A stretch of DNA of 64,000 nucleotides, taken from contig BGKB01000066.1 of the NCBI GenBank assembly GCA_003116975.1, positions 186,001 to 250,000 of the forward strand. Reading direction: 5' to 3'. Numbering within the stretch: position 1 is the first letter of the stretch; each line of letters opens with the position of its first letter. Position numbers and translations under genes: made by a program. A model generated the notes under the pieces. That model was not told the origin of the DNA. It did no database searches and saw only the letters and a list, made by a program, of their open reading frames with translations. This document shows positions 3,801 to 13,663 of the stretch, one piece after another. The stretch is from Aurantiochytrium sp. KH105. Taxonomy: Eukaryota > Sar > Bigyra > Thraustochytrida > Thraustochytriidae.

Positions 3801-6800
3801 TTAGTACTTTGCGACAGAGTCTGTCGCGCCAAGAGACTCCTGCTTCGTCTCCAGGGCATTGCTCGTCACTTTACTCGACGCCTGAGTCACCGAGGCGACC
3901 TGGGTTCTTGAAACCCCCGCTCGGCTCCTACTCTTTGGCTTGAGGGCGCTCGTGCCAAATCCAGAGCTCTCCGGAGGACCGAATATGCAAAAGTATACCT
4001 TGGGGCAGAAAATGAGAGCGCACGTCGAAAAGTCGTTAAGGAAGATCGCGATGGCACGAATAAACATCGAGGTCTGCTCATCGTTCGCAGTCAGCTTGAT
4101 GACAGGCAAGGCGAGGACCAAGATCTGAAGGTTACTCACCATGGCCAAGCTCAAATACTTTGCCTCTGCAAACACTCCATTCACCTTGCGACATTGGTAG
4201 CTCAGAACCGCTCCGTACATGAGTAGACTCAAGTGGTATGCTGCCATAAACCAAACAAATATGCTAGAGCGGGGACTTTCGCAGGCACCGTTGAGTGGAT
4301 CATCAGAAGGACGGACAAACTGAAGCGGGTCCGTGAGCGTCCAGGCCAACAGTCCAATCGCCTCGATAGCCACCAGGAAAATGAGCACTTGCACTGCAGT
4401 TTTCAGCGAGACCCCCCGCGCTTTCTTCATCCTTGCTGCGCTGCGAAAGACTTTGACCACGCGTCGGAGCTTGACAATCATTGTCGAAAATGTGATTGCA
4501 AAGCCAATGCCATAGAACCAAGGTTGAGCCATGCAAGCCCAATTGGCAAGATCATTCTTTCCTTCGCCTGCAGCAGGACCGACACTGTCGTCTACAGCCA
4601 TGACAAAGTTGGTAATGGAGGACGTCATCGTACCGAATCCCACTAGGATGAGCAGCACAGGCTGTGAAGCTCTCACGATTGCATTGTTGCGCATTGCGAT
4701 TGTCCAGACAATACAGCCCAAGGCAAACACACTGTTCATTCCTCCAAGAACCCGGGCAATCAGTTTGATACTGCTTACTCCTGCCTTGTCTTCGTCCACC
4801 TCGCACGTCATTGTTAGATTTCGCGTCAACGTTGGTGCGCACGTCTCGTTGGACGCATCTGCGTACACGGCCGTGTAGTAAAACCCGCATTCGCAACGCG
4901 CAGGAAGCCCATCGCTGCTGTCTTCCTCCGTGCAGTACCCGTTTGCTGGACATCCATCACTGCACAATGTAGGCGCCGGGGCGTCAATGTACATTGTCAT
5001 GACATAATACCACGTCACGCCGCCGTCCGCGGCGGAGACCTGCCTTGCAGCCTGAACAGACACAATTTTGTCCACACTTGAGCCAAACGCATCGTTCCAC
5101 GAGACACTGAAGGTGCCGCCACCGAGCTTGAAGGCATTGTAAACAACATTTGCTTCAAAGCTGTCACCGAGCGAAGTGACGGACTCAGTTTGCTGCAGAA
5201 AGTCAACGTACGGCTGAGGGTCCGACATATTCCACCCTTGATGCGCCGTGACGTCTCCGTGCGCTACAATATTGAGATTCTCATCGAGAATTATCGGATA
5301 AAAGTCTGGCCCAACTGTCACGTTGCCAGCATTGATCTCCACAAGAATAGCACTCACCTCGGCATCCGAACCTGCGAGTTGAATATCTGTGACGATCTCA
5401 CCAATCAACGCCTGACTGTTGATTTCGGAGCATGGCGCCGAGTACATAGAGGAACAAGCCTCTGTCACTGGTGCGCGCTCTCGTCGATAGCCGAGAACCA
5501 GGTAGTATTCATTATCGTCCGTGACGAGCTTTTGGACGAATGCCGCAAAAGGACTAAAGTTGTCTTCTCCAGCCAGCTCGAGCCAACCGCCGCCCAAGTC
5601 GGCCAAATCCTTTAGCATGGCGTCCGCGGTTGATACTTCCCCAATGTGACGTACGGAGAAGGCCGCTGCAGCGTCTGCACCCACAAGACTGACGTCGACT
5701 GTGTCGGCCATAACATTTCTTGTAGCATAGTCAACGATGAGGACGCCGAAGCCCCCAGGCATGATGTACTCCTCGGAGTTAGCATCGTTGATTCCGACAA
5801 AAAGACCATCCTCCTCACTCCGAGTGAGAATGTCGACTTGAGCATGAGCCGCGAGTGTGAGAACATTACTCATGGCGCATGGTTCGCTGTACTCGACCGA
5901 GCATGTGCCGCACAATGCGGCCTCCGCGGCTGGGTCACGAATGTGGTTGAAACCTGCGCCAACATAGTAATCGTTTCCAAAGCGCCGGAGACCTGCGACG
6001 TAGCTAACTTTCTCTTGTGCTGTCGCTGTGGACGAAACAGCCCAGTCGTAGCTGGCCCATCCACCACCTGACAGAGCCTCGGCAACAAAGTGCTCGTGCA
6101 GCCTCGTGCCGTTCTGTTTGCTGACATCCGGAACGATTGACAGAGAGATGTCAAATAGTGTTTTCCCAATCCAGTCGCTACGCTTGTGAGCAAAAGCCCC
6201 AGTCGTGAAGTTCTCGCCAAACCCATACGCAAAGACATACCAGCCTCCCTCCTGATAGGTCGTGTCCGTCGAGAAGGTAATGTCATTCCAGGTCTCGCGC
6301 AGCTCGGCAGGTGTATCGGCTGTCATTGCGCTATATAGCGCCGCGCCAACGAGAGACTGAGCAGTAACGATGTTACAGAGCCTATTGACTGTGGTCGGGC
6401 AAGTCTCAACGGGTGGCCGAGGCAAATGACGATGCGCGAAACCCGCAACGATGACGTATGAGTGCCCGATCACATCGATGCGATTGGCGTACCCGAGAAA
6501 GGAGACAGGTTCGCCGTCAAAGTCTTCGGACACAAAGTTGAACCTGAACCATCCATCGCTGTCTTCTGCAGACGCAAGAAGAACTTCTTCAGAGAGACCA
6601 TCTTGAGTGGTGTTCACGCCGAGAGACAGGGCCATTTCCTCGAGTGTCAGGTTGCTAAATCCCACGGCATCGCGACCATTGGCGATGCAGCGCATGGAGT
6701 CTGCGTCGAAAATGTACGGAACAAAACCGTAGGCGTCCTTGATGTTAAACTCTTGGGCGTTGATCTGATCCAATATGGCTTGTATCTGTTCTTCGTTCGC

Positions 6801-7040
6801 TTGCGCGGATAGGAGCTTCGACGTGGTCAGAACAAGACGAAGCACATTGTTAAAGGAACAAGGAGCCGCATAGTCAGCGGAGCAGGCAGGAAAAGCAGTC
6901 ACCGTCGTGTTCAAAATCTCGTCCTCCGAAGTCAGAAATCGATCGTGGAAACGCGGCGGTCTTCCCAAGGCTGGCGTTATACATTGCAAGAGCAAAAGTG
7001 CGCATGCAAGCTGAAGCGCACAGCTTCGAAACGTCGTCAT
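3801..7040 (-). CDS. Multi-Cache class C G-protein-coupled receptor
   Basis: 1079 aa, single exon. Signal peptide at about 1-26. Four repeated ligand-binding-like modules follow at roughly 53-205, 214-370, 377-523 and 529-686. Each starts with a Cys pair (as in CSADYAAPC, CSVEYSEPC) and carries single-Cache features: a short (I/L)-rich helix, a WIGKTLFDI-like strand, GGGW, and a closing YYVGAGF-type strand. A Cys-rich EGF-like linker occupies about 693-746. Seven hydrophobic helices lie at about 765-783, 794-815, 836-856, 882-902, 927-948, 962-983 and 991-1012. Class C hallmarks are a Cys at the top of TM3 (C836), a Cys in loop 2 (C920), and FCPKVY at the end of TM7, matching the FxPKxY motif of metabotropic glutamate receptors. 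The tail is short, Ser/Thr/Lys-rich and cytosolic. Class C receptors normally use a Venus flytrap domain. Here Cache modules replace it, as in GPR158/GPR179. The ligand is unknown. Confidence 0.85.
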   Translation of the reverse strand: MTTFRSCALQLACALLLLQCITPALGRPPRFHDRFLTSEDEILNTTVTAFPACSADYAAPCSFNNVLRLVLTTSKLLSAQANEEQIQAILDQINAQEFNIKDAYGFVPYIFDADSMRCIANGRDAVGFSNLTLEEMALSLGVNTTQDGLSEEVLLASAEDSDGWFRFNFVSEDFDGEPVSFLGYANRIDVIGHSYVIVAGFAHRHLPRPPVETCPTTVNRLCNIVTAQSLVGAALYSAMTADTPAELRETWNDITFSTDTTYQEGGWYVFAYGFGENFTTGAFAHKRSDWIGKTLFDISLSIVPDVSKQNGTRLHEHFVAEALSGGGWASYDWAVSSTATAQEKVSYVAGLRRFGNDYYVGAGFNHIRDPAAEAALCGTCSVEYSEPCAMSNVLTLAAHAQVDILTRSEEDGLFVGINDANSEEYIMPGGFGVLIVDYATRNVMADTVDVSLVGADAAAAFSVRHIGEVSTADAMLKDLADLGGGWLELAGEDNFSPFAAFVQKLVTDDNEYYLVLGYRRERAPVTEACSSMYSAPCSEINSQALIGEIVTDIQLAGSDAEVSAILVEINAGNVTVGPDFYPIILDENLNIVAHGDVTAHQGWNMSDPQPYVDFLQQTESVTSLGDSFEANVVYNAFKLGGGTFSVSWNDAFGSSVDKIVSVQAARQVSAADGGVTWYYVMTMYIDAPAPTLCSDGCPANGYCTEEDSSDGLPARCECGFYYTAVYADASNETCAPTLTRNLTMTCEVDEDKAGVSSIKLIARVLGGMNSVFALGCIVWTIAMRNNAIVRASQPVLLILVGFGTMTSSITNFVMAVDDSVGPAAGEGKNDLANWACMAQPWFYGIGFAITFSTMIVKLRRVVKVFRSAARMKKARGVSLKTAVQVLIFLVAIEAIGLLAWTLTDPLQFVRPSDDPLNGACESPRSSIFVWFMAAYHLSLLMYGAVLSYQCRKVNGVFAEAKYLSLAMVSNLQILVLALPVIKLTANDEQTSMFIRAIAIFLNDFSTCALIFCPKVYFCIFGPPESSGFGTSALKPKSRSRAGVSRTQVASVTQASSKVTSNALETKQESLGATDSVAKY

Positions 7041-8809: not shown

Positions 8810-11800
8810 ATGTCACTGTACATAGACTTTCCTGTCGCGGCGCCAGCCGTCGTGCATGAAGATGAGGCCACGGAAGGTAAGGAAGATGGCCAAGGAAAGA
8901 CTTTCGATGCAATTACGACGGCCTGGTGCAAATCAGAAAGCATCCTGGCCATTGCAGGCCGAGGCCGCGGCGTTTGGTTTGCCAACGACGAGGGAGAACT
9001 CGTACAGGGTGCAGACCTCGTGCGGAGCAGTCGCAACAGCGATGCTTGCGTTTTGGATTGGCGCGTACGCAGCAAAGTTCTAGCTACTGGCTGGGACGAT
9101 GGTGCCATCACGCTGTGGAACGTCAAAGACCGCATCCTCAAGGAAGATACATCGGTGCACGCCACGGCCGTCACTGTGACATCGTGGAGCCCTGAAGGCT
9201 CACGACTTTTGACTGCAGACAAACACGGATTGATGGCACTTTGGCGTACCGATCACCGCGGTCGCCTCGCGGTAGTCTGCAAAAAGGACCTCGGGAGTGG
9301 CGAGGACATTACCTGCTGCTGCTGGATGCTCACTCCGGAGTACCGCGAAGCCCAGCGCGAGCTCGCTACTCCGCCACAGCAAGTCTTTCTCGGCACTAAA
9401 TTTGGCAATGTATACCTTGTCAATCTCAAAGGTGAGCTTCTCTGCGCTGCACGCCTCGATGCTGGCCTTCGCAGTATGAACTGGTTCGAGGAAGAGCAAA
9501 AGCTCGTTGTGGTTACGGAGGACGCTTCGCTCATTCAGCTCAAGCCAGAAAATGCGTGCACCGAGTTGCAGGTGGCTTCCAAGTCAAAGCTCTCACTGAG
9601 CGCCTCGGCTGCGATTAGCGGCATCACAGAAGCCCAATGGACCTGCCCAGGCCTCTTGGCGACTTGTGCCACAGAACCGCACATTCGTCTGTGGGATCTT
9701 GCGAACGATTCGAGCTACTCTTTGCCGCTGCCTGTCGTCGCTGGTGACACGGACGCCCCAGGGAGCCCGCGTCCTGAGGACCTTGCCACGCACATTTCTT
9801 TCAATGCAAAAACGCGCATTCTGGCTGCAAGCACACGCCAAGGCCGTCTCGCGCTGTGGCGCTTTGTCGGTGAAGCTGCGACGCCAATTTTCGAGCATGC
9901 AAGTGATGGAAATGACGCAGCTGACGAAAAGGAAAACATCCACTCTTCGACAACAAAGTCCTCTGAGGCCCTTGCGACGCGATTCCACTTTCCCGAGACA
10001 AATCGCTCGAGTTGGGAAGCCGTGGCAACGCTGAGTGCCGTGTCTGCACCGGTCTTGTCCATTGGTTGGGGGCTCCGTCAGGGCTGTCTCGCGGTCATTA
10101 TGAAGGATCGCGTGAGTATCATGAATGAAACAGTGCTGCACCGTGCTCTGCGCTGCGATGTGGCGGCCTTGCAGCTTTCAGCGCAGCGCCTTCTGGTGCA
10201 GCGTGGCGCATCGCACCGCATGGAGACGCATGTAGGTCTACGCATCAAGGGTCTCGACGTGAACGATTCACATGCTCTCGTGTGGTCACAACGTAAAGCA
10301 GAGGTGTACGCGTTTCAGGACAATCGCATGGACCGCATCGCAAGCTTTACCACGCGCGCCGAGGCCATGGCTCTCTACGGAGAAACTATCTTGCAGACTG
10401 AGGGTAGCCACCTTTCCGTGTGCAACCTGCAAGGCGTTTCGCGCGCCGAGGTCTCTTTTTCGGAGCATGAAGGCGAACCTCGCTTCATGCACATTAACGG
10501 CAAATATCTTGCTGTCGCCACGCACAAAGGCATGTTGAAAGTTCTCGATGTCTCGCGTCGGGAGCCGCGCCCAGTCGGTGGGGGCGCTTGGTTCGTTTCG
10601 TCGGCGCGTTCCAAGGGCGGCAAGCCTTTGGGCAAGCAGGTTCCAATTGGCGAGATTCGGTCCATCCGCTGCAATGCTGACGGTACCCGCGTCAGCGTGC
10701 TCTGCGATATCGTGCGAGGCCAGCATCTCCGCGAGCCCGACACGCGCATCCACGTGTGGAACCTTAACAGGGACGAGTTCCAGGCGTACGAGTTTGGCCC
10801 CACTAGATACCCTGTGTCCCATTTTTGGGACGGCCAAGAGCCCAAGCTTCTCGCCTGCGAGGCCAAGCGTCTGCGCAAGAGCGTCAACTCTTTTGAGGAG
10901 GCATCGGATGCCAAGGTCAAGTCCTCAAAGGAGCTCAAAGGCAGCCGTCTACGCATTGTCGGTGATGAGGACGAGGACTTGGGTGACTTGCGTCGCGGGA
11001 ATAGCAGCGCTAGCCGGAGCAGCAATGGGCCCAGTGGTGCTGGTGGCAATGCAGGTGTGGATGACGTGGCGGCGGCGGCGGCAGCGGACGAAGAAAAGAA
11101 TCGGCTGCAAAAGATGAGAACCGCGCTTCGGGCTCGCAATGGCAGCGCTGAAATTGCCGAGGTCGAGGTGGTCACCCTTTTTGCAACAGAGGAACGTGTC
11201 GGCGTCATGATGCAGGACGCCTTCCCACTCGATGGCAATCTCGAGGCGCTTCTCGGCATGCGCGTTCCTCGGCTCTTCTTTATCAGCAAACCGAGCGAGA
11301 ACGGTGGCGTTCCACGCCTCAAGGGTCGCACGATGCGCGACTTTGTCGGTCTCGACCAGCGTGTGGACGATGAGACGAAGCGCGCTCTCATCGACTTTAG
11401 CTACTATCTCACCATTGGCAACATGGACGAGGCCTACCGCGCCGTCAAGCTCATTGATAACGTTTCGGTGTGGGAGAACATGGCGCACATGTGCGTTAAG
11501 ACGCGGCGTCTCGACGTTGCTGAAATGTGCATGGGCAACATGGGTCACGTGCGAGGTGCGCAAGCACTGCGCGAGAGCAAGCGTGAGCCTGAGGTCGAGG
11601 CGCGCATTGCCACCGTCGCAATTCAGCTCGGTCTTCTCGAGGACGCTGAAAGGCTCTACATTGAGTGCGGGCGGTATGACCTACTCAATAAGATGCTTCG
11701 GCACAGCGGCCAGTGGACTAAATCGCTCGAAGTCGCCAACAGCTTCGATCGCATTCATCTCCGCGAGTCCCACTTTGAGTATGGTCGTCATCTCGAAAGC

Positions 11801-13663
11801 ATGGGCGACTTCAAGGCTGCTATTGCCAATTACGAGGCTTCGGGAACGCACCGCAAACAGGTTCCACGCATGCTCTTTGAAGCGGAGCGTCTTGATGAGC
11901 TCGAATCTTATATTCAAACGCAGTGCGACGAAGAGCTTACAAAATGGTGGGGCCACTACTGCGAGAGCCTTGGCGAGTACGACCGCTCGATTCGTGTCTA
12001 CCAGCGTGCATCCGACGACCTTTCCCTTGTACGGGTGCACTGCGTCATGGAGAACTTCAAGGCTGCCGCTGAGATCGCGCTCAACAGCACCAATCTTGCG
12101 GCCTCGTACCACCTCGCGCGCCAATGCGAGCAGCGCGGGGAGATCAATGAGGCAATTCAGTTTTACTCTCGCGCGGGGCGTTACAACCATGCTGTGCGCC
12201 TCGCCAAGGAGCGCGGACTCAATGCGGACATTGTTAACCTGGCCTTGCGCGCCTCGAAGACCACAATGGTGGAGGCCGCGCGATACCTTGAGGCCAAGGG
12301 TTTTAACGAAGATGCTGTGGTCCTGTACCAAAAGGGCGGCAACGTGCCTCGTGCGCTCGATCTCTGTTTTCGCTCGCAGCTCTTTGATCAACTCACGTCT
12401 ATTGCAGACAGCCTGACGCTCCGCAAGCCTTCAGCGCGCCCGGACTCGGGTTCGCGATCGCGCCCTGGGTCCGCAATGCGAAGCCAAAGCATCGACGGGA
12501 GCCAAGGTCTGCATCGCGAGCGGCCCGAGAGCGCCACAAGTCAAAGTCGCGAAGAGTATGAGCAGGACACCACGGAGTCGTCGCCAGAGATCCTCACGCG
12601 CTGCGCCGAGTTTTTCATTGAACATCGCAAGTTTGACAAGGCCGTGCACCTTTACATCACCGCTGGCGACTTTGAGACGGCGATTGAACTTTGTTTTCAC
12701 CAAAAGGTGCACATTTCCGAAGACATGGCCGAGTCCATGACGCTGGACAAGCTGTCGGCTGCTCCAAAGTCAGGTAACAAGAAGCAGACGCCGCGCGAGC
12801 TGGCCCGGATCAAGGAGCACAACGAGCGCCGTCAGCGACTTCTCGAGAGCATTGCCAAGTGCTGCAAGAAGCAAGGCTCGTATCATCTTGCCACGAAAAA
12901 GTACACGCAAGCTGGAGATCGCCTCCGCGCGATGAAGTGCTTGCTACGCTCCGGTAATACAGAGAAGATCATTCTGTATGCAAGTGTGTCCCGCAACCGC
13001 GAGATTTACATTCTCGCCGCCAACTATCTGCAGAATCTCGACTGGCGCAACGATGCGGAGATCATGAAAGCTATCATCAGCTACTACTCCAAGGCCAAAG
13101 CATACCAGCAGCTCGCCGGATTCTACGAAGCTTGTGCTCAAATGGAAGTTGACGAGTACCGTGACTACGACAAGTCTCTTGGCGCACTCAAGGAGGCTGT
13201 CAAAGCCCTCGGCAAGGAGAGGGATGGCGAGTTGAAGGAGGAAATGCTTGCCTCTCTGCAGCAACGTGTTTCCCTTGTAGAGCGTTTTGTACACGCGCGT
13301 ACGCTCGTCGTGAGCGACCCTGATGAGGCTGATCGCATTTGCAACGCGCTCTTGGCTCATCCAGAGGTCAACACAGCTGTGCGCGCGGGAGATATTTTCG
13401 CGCTGCTCGTCGAGTTTCATGTTGGGAACCGCGACTTTGACGACGCGCATCGCCTCATCGAGAACATGAAGGCACGTAACATTGCGGTGGCGCCGTACAT
13501 TGAGGCGCCTCTTCTGGACCAGATTGCTCGAGCTGTTGGCGTTGACTCCCTCATTGACGACGATGGACCGCGTGTTGGCAAGGGAAGTGCAGGTCTCGGT
13601 GTTGACTCGGGCGACGAGATTGACGACGAGATTGAGGAGGACCTGGATTGGGGTCATAAGTGA
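8810..13663 (+). CDS. IFT140: Intraflagellar transport protein 140 (IFT-A subunit)
   Basis: 1617 aa in one exon. IFT140 is a core subunit of IFT complex A, which drives retrograde transport and import of membrane proteins into cilia. The start (MSLYIDFPV) parallels the human MALYYDHQI start. Residues about 1-690 form the paired WD40 propellers, and about 850-1560 the TPR-like superhelix. Highly conserved blocks include MRDFVGL, VWENMAHMCVKTRRLDVAEMC, GSYHLATKKYTQAG and EIYILAANYLQ-LDWR. The protein ends in an acidic tail, as in the animal homologue. Two lineage-specific insertions are visible: about 80 residues, Ser/Gly/Ala-rich, at about 695-775, and a Ser/Arg-rich stretch at about 1204-1262 within the TPR region. 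Its presence implies a flagellated stage. Its 3' end faces MTD1 across 446 bp. Confidence 0.97.
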   Translation: MSLYIDFPVAAPAVVHEDEATEGKEDGQGKTFDAITTAWCKSESILAIAGRGRGVWFANDEGELVQGADLVRSSRNSDACVLDWRVRSKVLATGWDDGAITLWNVKDRILKEDTSVHATAVTVTSWSPEGSRLLTADKHGLMALWRTDHRGRLAVVCKKDLGSGEDITCCCWMLTPEYREAQRELATPPQQVFLGTKFGNVYLVNLKGELLCAARLDAGLRSMNWFEEEQKLVVVTEDASLIQLKPENACTELQVASKSKLSLSASAAISGITEAQWTCPGLLATCATEPHIRLWDLANDSSYSLPLPVVAGDTDAPGSPRPEDLATHISFNAKTRILAASTRQGRLALWRFVGEAATPIFEHASDGNDAADEKENIHSSTTKSSEALATRFHFPETNRSSWEAVATLSAVSAPVLSIGWGLRQGCLAVIMKDRVSIMNETVLHRALRCDVAALQLSAQRLLVQRGASHRMETHVGLRIKGLDVNDSHALVWSQRKAEVYAFQDNRMDRIASFTTRAEAMALYGETILQTEGSHLSVCNLQGVSRAEVSFSEHEGEPRFMHINGKYLAVATHKGMLKVLDVSRREPRPVGGGAWFVSSARSKGGKPLGKQVPIGEIRSIRCNADGTRVSVLCDIVRGQHLREPDTRIHVWNLNRDEFQAYEFGPTRYPVSHFWDGQEPKLLACEAKRLRKSVNSFEEASDAKVKSSKELKGSRLRIVGDEDEDLGDLRRGNSSASRSSNGPSGAGGNAGVDDVAAAAAADEEKNRLQKMRTALRARNGSAEIAEVEVVTLFATEERVGVMMQDAFPLDGNLEALLGMRVPRLFFISKPSENGGVPRLKGRTMRDFVGLDQRVDDETKRALIDFSYYLTIGNMDEAYRAVKLIDNVSVWENMAHMCVKTRRLDVAEMCMGNMGHVRGAQALRESKREPEVEARIATVAIQLGLLEDAERLYIECGRYDLLNKMLRHSGQWTKSLEVANSFDRIHLRESHFEYGRHLESMGDFKAAIANYEASGTHRKQVPRMLFEAERLDELESYIQTQCDEELTKWWGHYCESLGEYDRSIRVYQRASDDLSLVRVHCVMENFKAAAEIALNSTNLAASYHLARQCEQRGEINEAIQFYSRAGRYNHAVRLAKERGLNADIVNLALRASKTTMVEAARYLEAKGFNEDAVVLYQKGGNVPRALDLCFRSQLFDQLTSIADSLTLRKPSARPDSGSRSRPGSAMRSQSIDGSQGLHRERPESATSQSREEYEQDTTESSPEILTRCAEFFIEHRKFDKAVHLYITAGDFETAIELCFHQKVHISEDMAESMTLDKLSAAPKSGNKKQTPRELARIKEHNERRQRLLESIAKCCKKQGSYHLATKKYTQAGDRLRAMKCLLRSGNTEKIILYASVSRNREIYILAANYLQNLDWRNDAEIMKAIISYYSKAKAYQQLAGFYEACAQMEVDEYRDYDKSLGALKEAVKALGKERDGELKEEMLASLQQRVSLVERFVHARTLVVSDPDEADRICNALLAHPEVNTAVRAGDIFALLVEFHVGNRDFDDAHRLIENMKARNIAVAPYIEAPLLDQIARAVGVDSLIDDDGPRVGKGSAGLGVDSGDEIDDEIEEDLDWGHK

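Follow-up and report, generated by a model that had tools for sequence, protein, structure and literature searches.

The animal receptors GPR158 (mGlyR) and GPR179 carry a class C 7TM domain together with a Cache-type head and a Cys-rich linker, and have no Venus flytrap (PMC8611064 and PMC12716839, in their available sections). Cache itself is a sensor domain familiar above all from the chemotaxis receptors of bacteria. The predicted product of the gene analysed here is likewise built in this way, as a member of the glutamate/GABA-receptor family. This gene is located in a 64,000-nucleotide stretch of DNA from Aurantiochytrium sp. KH105 (referred to as the window).

Among eukaryotes, several Cache-type units within one ectodomain are found in alpha2delta and CACHD1, in which a VWA domain is present as well. 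Diatoms belong to the stramenopiles. In 2012, the class C receptor TP_7830 of the diatom Thalassiosira pseudonana was described as carrying Cache_1 in a paper that places it, in the part available, under Alveolata, and that also describes PBP_like_2 and OpuAC heads on class C receptors of fungi (PMC3251606); our comparison with TP_7830 uses this published description only. For the non-metazoan GPCRs screened in an eLife survey of 2025, the available sections report neither Cache nor Cache combined with EGF; they add that the Cache + EGF combination has yet to be identified in any non-metazoan GPCR, and take the animal head combinations to be a stem-metazoan invention (PMC12716839). Cache is also unmentioned in the available text of a survey of social amoebae (PMC10445921), and class C domains were reported to be enriched in thraustochytrids (PMC6050695, available sections). 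Within the literature that we searched, which omits most subscription journals, tandem Cache units on a class C receptor were not found outside animals.

Layout of the receptor gene and its paralogs

The features of the receptor are collected in Table 1. An in-frame TAG is located two codons 5′ of the receptor ATG. The order of four Cache-type modules, Cys-rich linker and 7TM domain that a preliminary description had given was borne out, and the hydrophobic N-terminus, which is helical in an AF2 model, resembles a signal peptide by eye. Among the paralogs described below, dN of the C-terminal tail amounts to 1.08–1.40, versus 0.27–0.49 for the full length.

Table 1. Coordinates of the receptor features and of other frames in the window
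Feature	Position in window	Strand	Remarks
Receptor gene	3801..7040	(-)	One open frame, 1079 aa + stop
Signal-peptide-like hydrophobic N-terminus, residues 1-26	6963..7040	(-)	By eye; helix 3-25 in AF2 model
Module 1, residues 50-213, predicted Cache fold	6402..6893	(-)	
Module 2, residues 214-376, predicted sCache_2 domain	5913..6401	(-)	
Module 3, residues 377-528, Cache-like	5457..5912	(-)	
Module 4, residues 529-692, Cache-like	4965..5456	(-)	
Cys-rich linker, residues 693-746	4803..4964	(-)	Seven Cys invariant in 8/8; EGF-like by pattern only
Class C 7TM, residues 757-1022	3975..4772	(-)	Pfam 7tm_3 E 4.9e-40
Short variable C-terminal tail, residues 1023-1079	3804..3974	(-)	
IFT140 (flagellar transport protein)	8810..13663	(+)	Adjoins receptor gene
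Midasin-like frame, 5782 residues	17762..35110	(-)	One half with midasin lids and nine AAA_5 stretches; other half with a VWA match below threshold
Frame of 999 residues	48044..51043	(-)	Sub-threshold polycystin-channel hint only (9.8 bits, E 0.67)

Searching the genome (76 Mb, 367 contigs) revealed eight full-length copies of the receptor gene, the window gene included, all of which are open and which correspond to four paralogs in two copies each. The allele-like copy of the window gene (L002) encodes a protein 97% identical to the window protein, while the further pairs share about 64–65%, 51% and 49–50% identity with it. On contig C66, a tandem array within 16 kb holds three of the four paralogs in the same orientation (at 177462, 181938 and, for the window gene, 189804). 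Because contig C42 repeats this order and the copies come in pairs, the paired copies are probably haplotypes. Across the four allele-like pairs, full-length dN/dS was 0.15 (window gene versus L002), 0.17, 0.21 and 0.10, and these genes are therefore kept. Between the window protein and the other paralogs, identity amounts to 41–70% per module and 63–68% in the 7TM; module identity thus lies mostly below 7TM identity, as would be expected if the ligands change while the output stays constant.

The genome contains 69 places above the 7tm_3 cut-off, or about half as many genes if the contigs are paired. Of these places, 52 were retrieved, and 48 of the proteins were scanned for head domains with Pfam as one set (E 0.01). 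At least four kinds of head are present, with ANF_receptor in 19 proteins, PBP_like_2 in 8, OpuAC in 5 and sCache_2 in 4. For G-alpha, 27 of 46 genomic matches were over the cut-off.

Some further observations concern individual sequences and the neighbourhood of the gene. In the L005/L006 pair, dN/dS of module 1 was 0.77 (12 of 161 residues changed, and thus small numbers) versus 0.04 for the 7TM. The class C proteins L049 and L050 end, at the limit of the retrieved DNA, in similar Trp-containing sequences that by eye resemble the beginning of a WW-type domain. Since IFT140 adjoins the receptor gene, the organism probably has a flagellum.

Relationships among the four modules

When split at the conserved Cys residues, the ectodomain of the window protein yields modules of 152–164 residues. 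The first Cys common to the repeats corresponds to C53, C214, C380 and C529; a second Cys follows in every repeat, and module 3 has an additional Cys (C377) ahead of C380. Across 25 aligned modules both of these Cys columns are invariant, and Asn, Gly and Tyr recur in at least 90%.

In HMM cross-searches, the module 1 profile recovered modules 3 (E 3.4e-7) and 4 (E 1.4e-7) of L003, the module 3 profile recovered module 1 of the same protein (E 1.8e-11), and the module 2 profile recovered module 4 of L008 (E 1.6e-7). The best match of a module profile in the other 40 class C proteins was L014, with an E-value of 0.039. Moreover, hhalign aligned modules 1 and 3 (E 9.3e-12), 1 and 4 (E 1e-9), 2 and 4 (E 4.5e-6), 2 and 3 (E 1.7e-5) and 1 and 2 (E 1.6e-4), as well as modules 3 and 4 across 21 columns only (E 3.4e-4). 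At the level of sequence, these cross-matches and alignments show that the four modules are mutually homologous members of one family, in agreement with the four Cys-started repeats noticed earlier, which the invariant Cys columns bear out as well.

Evidence for a Cache fold

With the whole protein as query, Pfam sCache_2 matched residues 305–372 of module 2 with 26.7 bits (cut-off 25), and module 2 searched alone scored just below this cut-off (23.2 bits). A dCache_2 match at residues 301–365 was under its own cut-off (22.3 versus 26.5 bits), and modules 1, 3 and 4 of the window protein gave no Cache match in Pfam. A six-frame sCache_2 search of the organism's own genome yielded no place at E ≤ 0.001, and the Cache signal in the sequence is therefore faint. 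When module 2 was compared to plasmids by tblastn, 19 of the 25 rows listed (125 records) were annotated as 'cache domain-containing protein' and another was MctS, although many of these rows are near-copies and each listed E-value is at least 0.7. The corresponding searches with modules 1, 3 and 4 returned 2, 4 and 2 records, respectively, with zero annotated as Cache. Comparison to a profile of 11 bacterial Cache domains, with 60 shuffles per module, also speaks for Cache, but module 1 scored 19.4, which is below the maximum of 20.3 reached by its shuffles.

Sequence searches of the PDB with the module 2 profile returned only 4k08 (E 1.1), which PMC4822843 (available sections) includes among the sCache_2 structures, while the profile of the pooled modules returned RsgI and HP0420-type chains (E 0.17–0.19). 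Neither a search of viral contigs with the whole protein nor a search of prokaryotic genome contigs with a module 2 alignment gave a confirmed relative, and a near donor of the modules was therefore not found in those contigs.

The AF2 model was built from eight sequences and is of low overall quality (mean pLDDT 48.7, pTM 0.42), with the linker and 7TM mostly below 50. Ten-residue blocks with a pLDDT of at least 60 made up 12 of 14 in module 1, 4 of 16 in module 2, 7 of 14 in module 3 and 8 of 16 in module 4. The modelled order of elements is near-identical across the four modules, apart from one early strand missing in module 2, and a long N-terminal helix opens each of them. The structural matches with the highest Z were single-Cache chemoreceptor domains, and the top matches are ligand-binding sensory domains; the best match of module 3 carries no Cache label, and GPR158 was absent among the best 50 structural matches listed. 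As judged from the model, module 1 is a Cache fold with a long N-terminal helix, and module 2 is Cache by both its sCache_2 match and its predicted fold. The single-Cache assignment of the preliminary description thus held through sequence for module 2 and through structure for module 1, whereas modules 3 and 4 are better called Cache-like, by their kinship with modules 1 and 2 and by weaker matches.

The Cys-rich linker and the class C 7TM domain

Pfam returned no family at E ≤ 10 for the linker of the window protein, and an EB module below cut-off (E 0.052) for that of the L007 copy. In the model the linker has a pLDDT below 50, and its EGF label is a reading of the Cys spacing; its seven Cys are invariant across all eight copies.

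In the 7TM, Pfam 7tm_3 matched residues 764–1014 with 138.2 bits (cut-off 33.5), and FCPKVY is located at residues 1011–1016. Residues C836, K857, C920 and E959 are each present in all 48 aligned class C proteins. We take C836/C920 to be the TM3–ECL2 disulfide and K857/E959 to be the K3.50–E6.35 switch pair, which acts as an ionic lock in mGluR and GABA-B. Since W486 is also invariant in this 48-protein alignment, even though the heads in it are not homologous, invariance was trusted only within the 7TM. The earlier class C assignment from the TM3/ECL2 Cys pair and FCPKVY is confirmed by the 7tm_3 match and the 48/48 Cys.

When run against PDB sequences, the Cache-receptor 7TM profile scored 71.7 bits with GABA-B1, 69.6 with GABA-B2, 46.5 with mGluR7, 36.7 with GPR179, 32.6 with CaSR and 29.1 with GPR156, and GPR158 was not among the best 60 of its 86 matches. 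Among the best 60 matches listed for two control profiles, GABA-B, GPR179 and GPR158 obtained 104.7, 31.1 and 26.2 bits for the in-genome flytrap group, and 108.7, 38.3 and 38.1 bits for the in-genome PBP_like_2 group. GABA-B was thus the best match for all three profiles, while the share of the best GABA-B score that was reached by GPR179 was 0.51 for the Cache profile versus 0.30 (flytrap) and 0.35 (PBP_like_2). In bits, the Cache-receptor 7TM has no special likeness to GPR158/179, but this test is weak, and the higher GPR179 share would be compatible with kinship.

Two 7TM trees were made from 24 and 16 in-genome receptors, respectively, plus three GABA-B fragments, and without GPR158/179 and mGluR. 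The second tree omits long-branched, OpuAC and near-duplicate rows, and contains L009 as a flytrap receptor labelled by eye, although Pfam found no ANF_receptor in it. In both of them the Cache receptors cluster as a single clade (100/100), which falls within a group of 15 or 13 in-genome rows that also contains flytrap and PBP_like_2 receptors (99/98, 99/96), and the attachment of the GABA-B rows differs between both trees.

Proposed mode of action and alternative readings

We consider it likely that the window gene encodes a plasma-membrane class C GPCR in which the Venus flytrap has been exchanged for four single-Cache modules that form a small-molecule-sensing rod and each begin with a pair of Cys, and that this head was captured independently of GPR158. 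The ligand may be an amino acid, carboxylate or amine, as in bacterial Cache sensors, and would occupy at least one of the module pockets, with module 2 as the best-kept candidate. Within a putative receptor dimer, the ensuing shape change could then reach the 7TM via the Cys-rich linker, a relay that has been proposed for the linker of GPR158 as well (PMC8611064, available sections). Opening of the class C K–E ionic lock (K857/E959) would in turn activate a heterotrimeric G protein, if signalling runs in this direction, and the receptor may serve in nutrient sensing. Probably, a local flytrap- or PBP-type class C receptor acquired the Cache head, followed by duplication to four genes, after which the heads would have diverged more than the 7TM.

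It is possible, albeit tentative, that the four modules have separate specificities, so that one receptor reads a metabolite blend and diverging heads on a constant 7TM build a chemosensory repertoire. If so, tandem duplication and head divergence would create a repertoire in a protist as in bacterial chemoreceptors, and Cache would have been joined to class C receptors on two or more occasions in eukaryotic evolution. The preliminary description had suggested that four modules could give multiligand or avidity sensing, for instance of nutrients during zoospore chemotaxis. That the tandem rod is mainly structural or adhesive (binding a protein partner or mediating cell-surface contact), without a small-molecule ligand, seems rather unlikely to us. 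The best 50 Foldseek rows do include calcium-channel complexes with gabapentin or dihydropyridines, in which the matched chain is presumably alpha2delta, and the Cachd1-FZD5 complex, although these alignments of ca. 650–690 columns have a TM-score of only ca. 0.1. The Pfam results also put modules 1, 3 and 4 far from Cache sequence; however, ligand-binding sensory domains as top structural matches and 7TM switch residues conserved in 48 of 48 proteins argue against this reading. PAS-repeat proteins (phytochromes, DosP) lead the Foldseek rows with low TM-score, module 4 alone best matches a PAS-like domain, and the GPR158 head was itself initially named PAS (PMC8611064, available sections). Nevertheless, we regard it as highly improbable that the modules have a PAS-like or other alpha/beta fold and are not true Cache domains, given that the long helix starting every module is described as a Cache trait that has never been seen in PAS (PMC4822843, available sections), and that the highest Z and the Pfam/profile matches point to single-Cache chemoreceptor domains and sCache_2.

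With regard to the origin of the head, the preliminary description had left a choice between an ancient relative of GPR158 and convergent capture, of which the latter is favoured. If animals and this protist had both retained a Cache + EGF class C receptor from an early eukaryote, this would explain why Cache is followed by a Cys-rich linker and a class C 7TM in both, and the elevated GPR179 share agrees with it. In absolute bits, however, GPR179 does no better with the Cache profile (36.7) than with the PBP_like_2 control (38.3), weak as this test is, and GPR158 is among the best 60 matches for both controls but not for the Cache profile. Moreover, the Cache clade is nested among in-genome receptors bearing flytrap and PBP heads, the linker lacks an EGF match in Pfam, and the available sections of the eLife survey confine Cache + EGF to metazoans (PMC12716839). 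Shared descent is therefore unlikely, and independent capture of Cache is the likelier origin.

Comparison with known receptors

A Cache head on a class C GPCR outside animals has a precedent in the diatom receptor of 2012. TP_7830 resembles the window receptor in this respect, but has one Cache_1 annotation versus four modules here. What does appear to be new is the combination of four tandem Cache units and a Cys-rich linker in such a receptor. The fungal and in-genome PBP_like_2/OpuAC receptors likewise bear a bacterial-type head on a class C 7TM, but of the periplasmic-binding-protein type instead of Cache. Bacterial sCache_2 chemoreceptors and kinases (4k08, TlpB 3ub6, MctS) share the predicted fold and the module 2 stretch GGGW/GGG...K..Y...G.G, but contain one module with a kinase or chemotaxis output, as opposed to four modules on a GPCR. 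Alpha2delta and CACHD1, which were matched by Foldseek with a TM-score of ca. 0.1, differ from the window receptor in having no 7TM.

Together with the diatom precedent, this family shows Cache heads on class C 7TMs outside animals, in tandem, and beside flytrap and PBP heads in one genome. It offers a natural series in which to examine how sensor folds of different kinds switch a single 7TM. Compared to GPR158/179, the window receptor has four modules instead of one Cache, a linker that is EGF-like by Cys pattern, and a tail of only 57 residues, and the PDB profile scores do not demonstrate 7TM kinship between them. These Cache receptors could also serve as a comparator for the glycine receptor GPR158.
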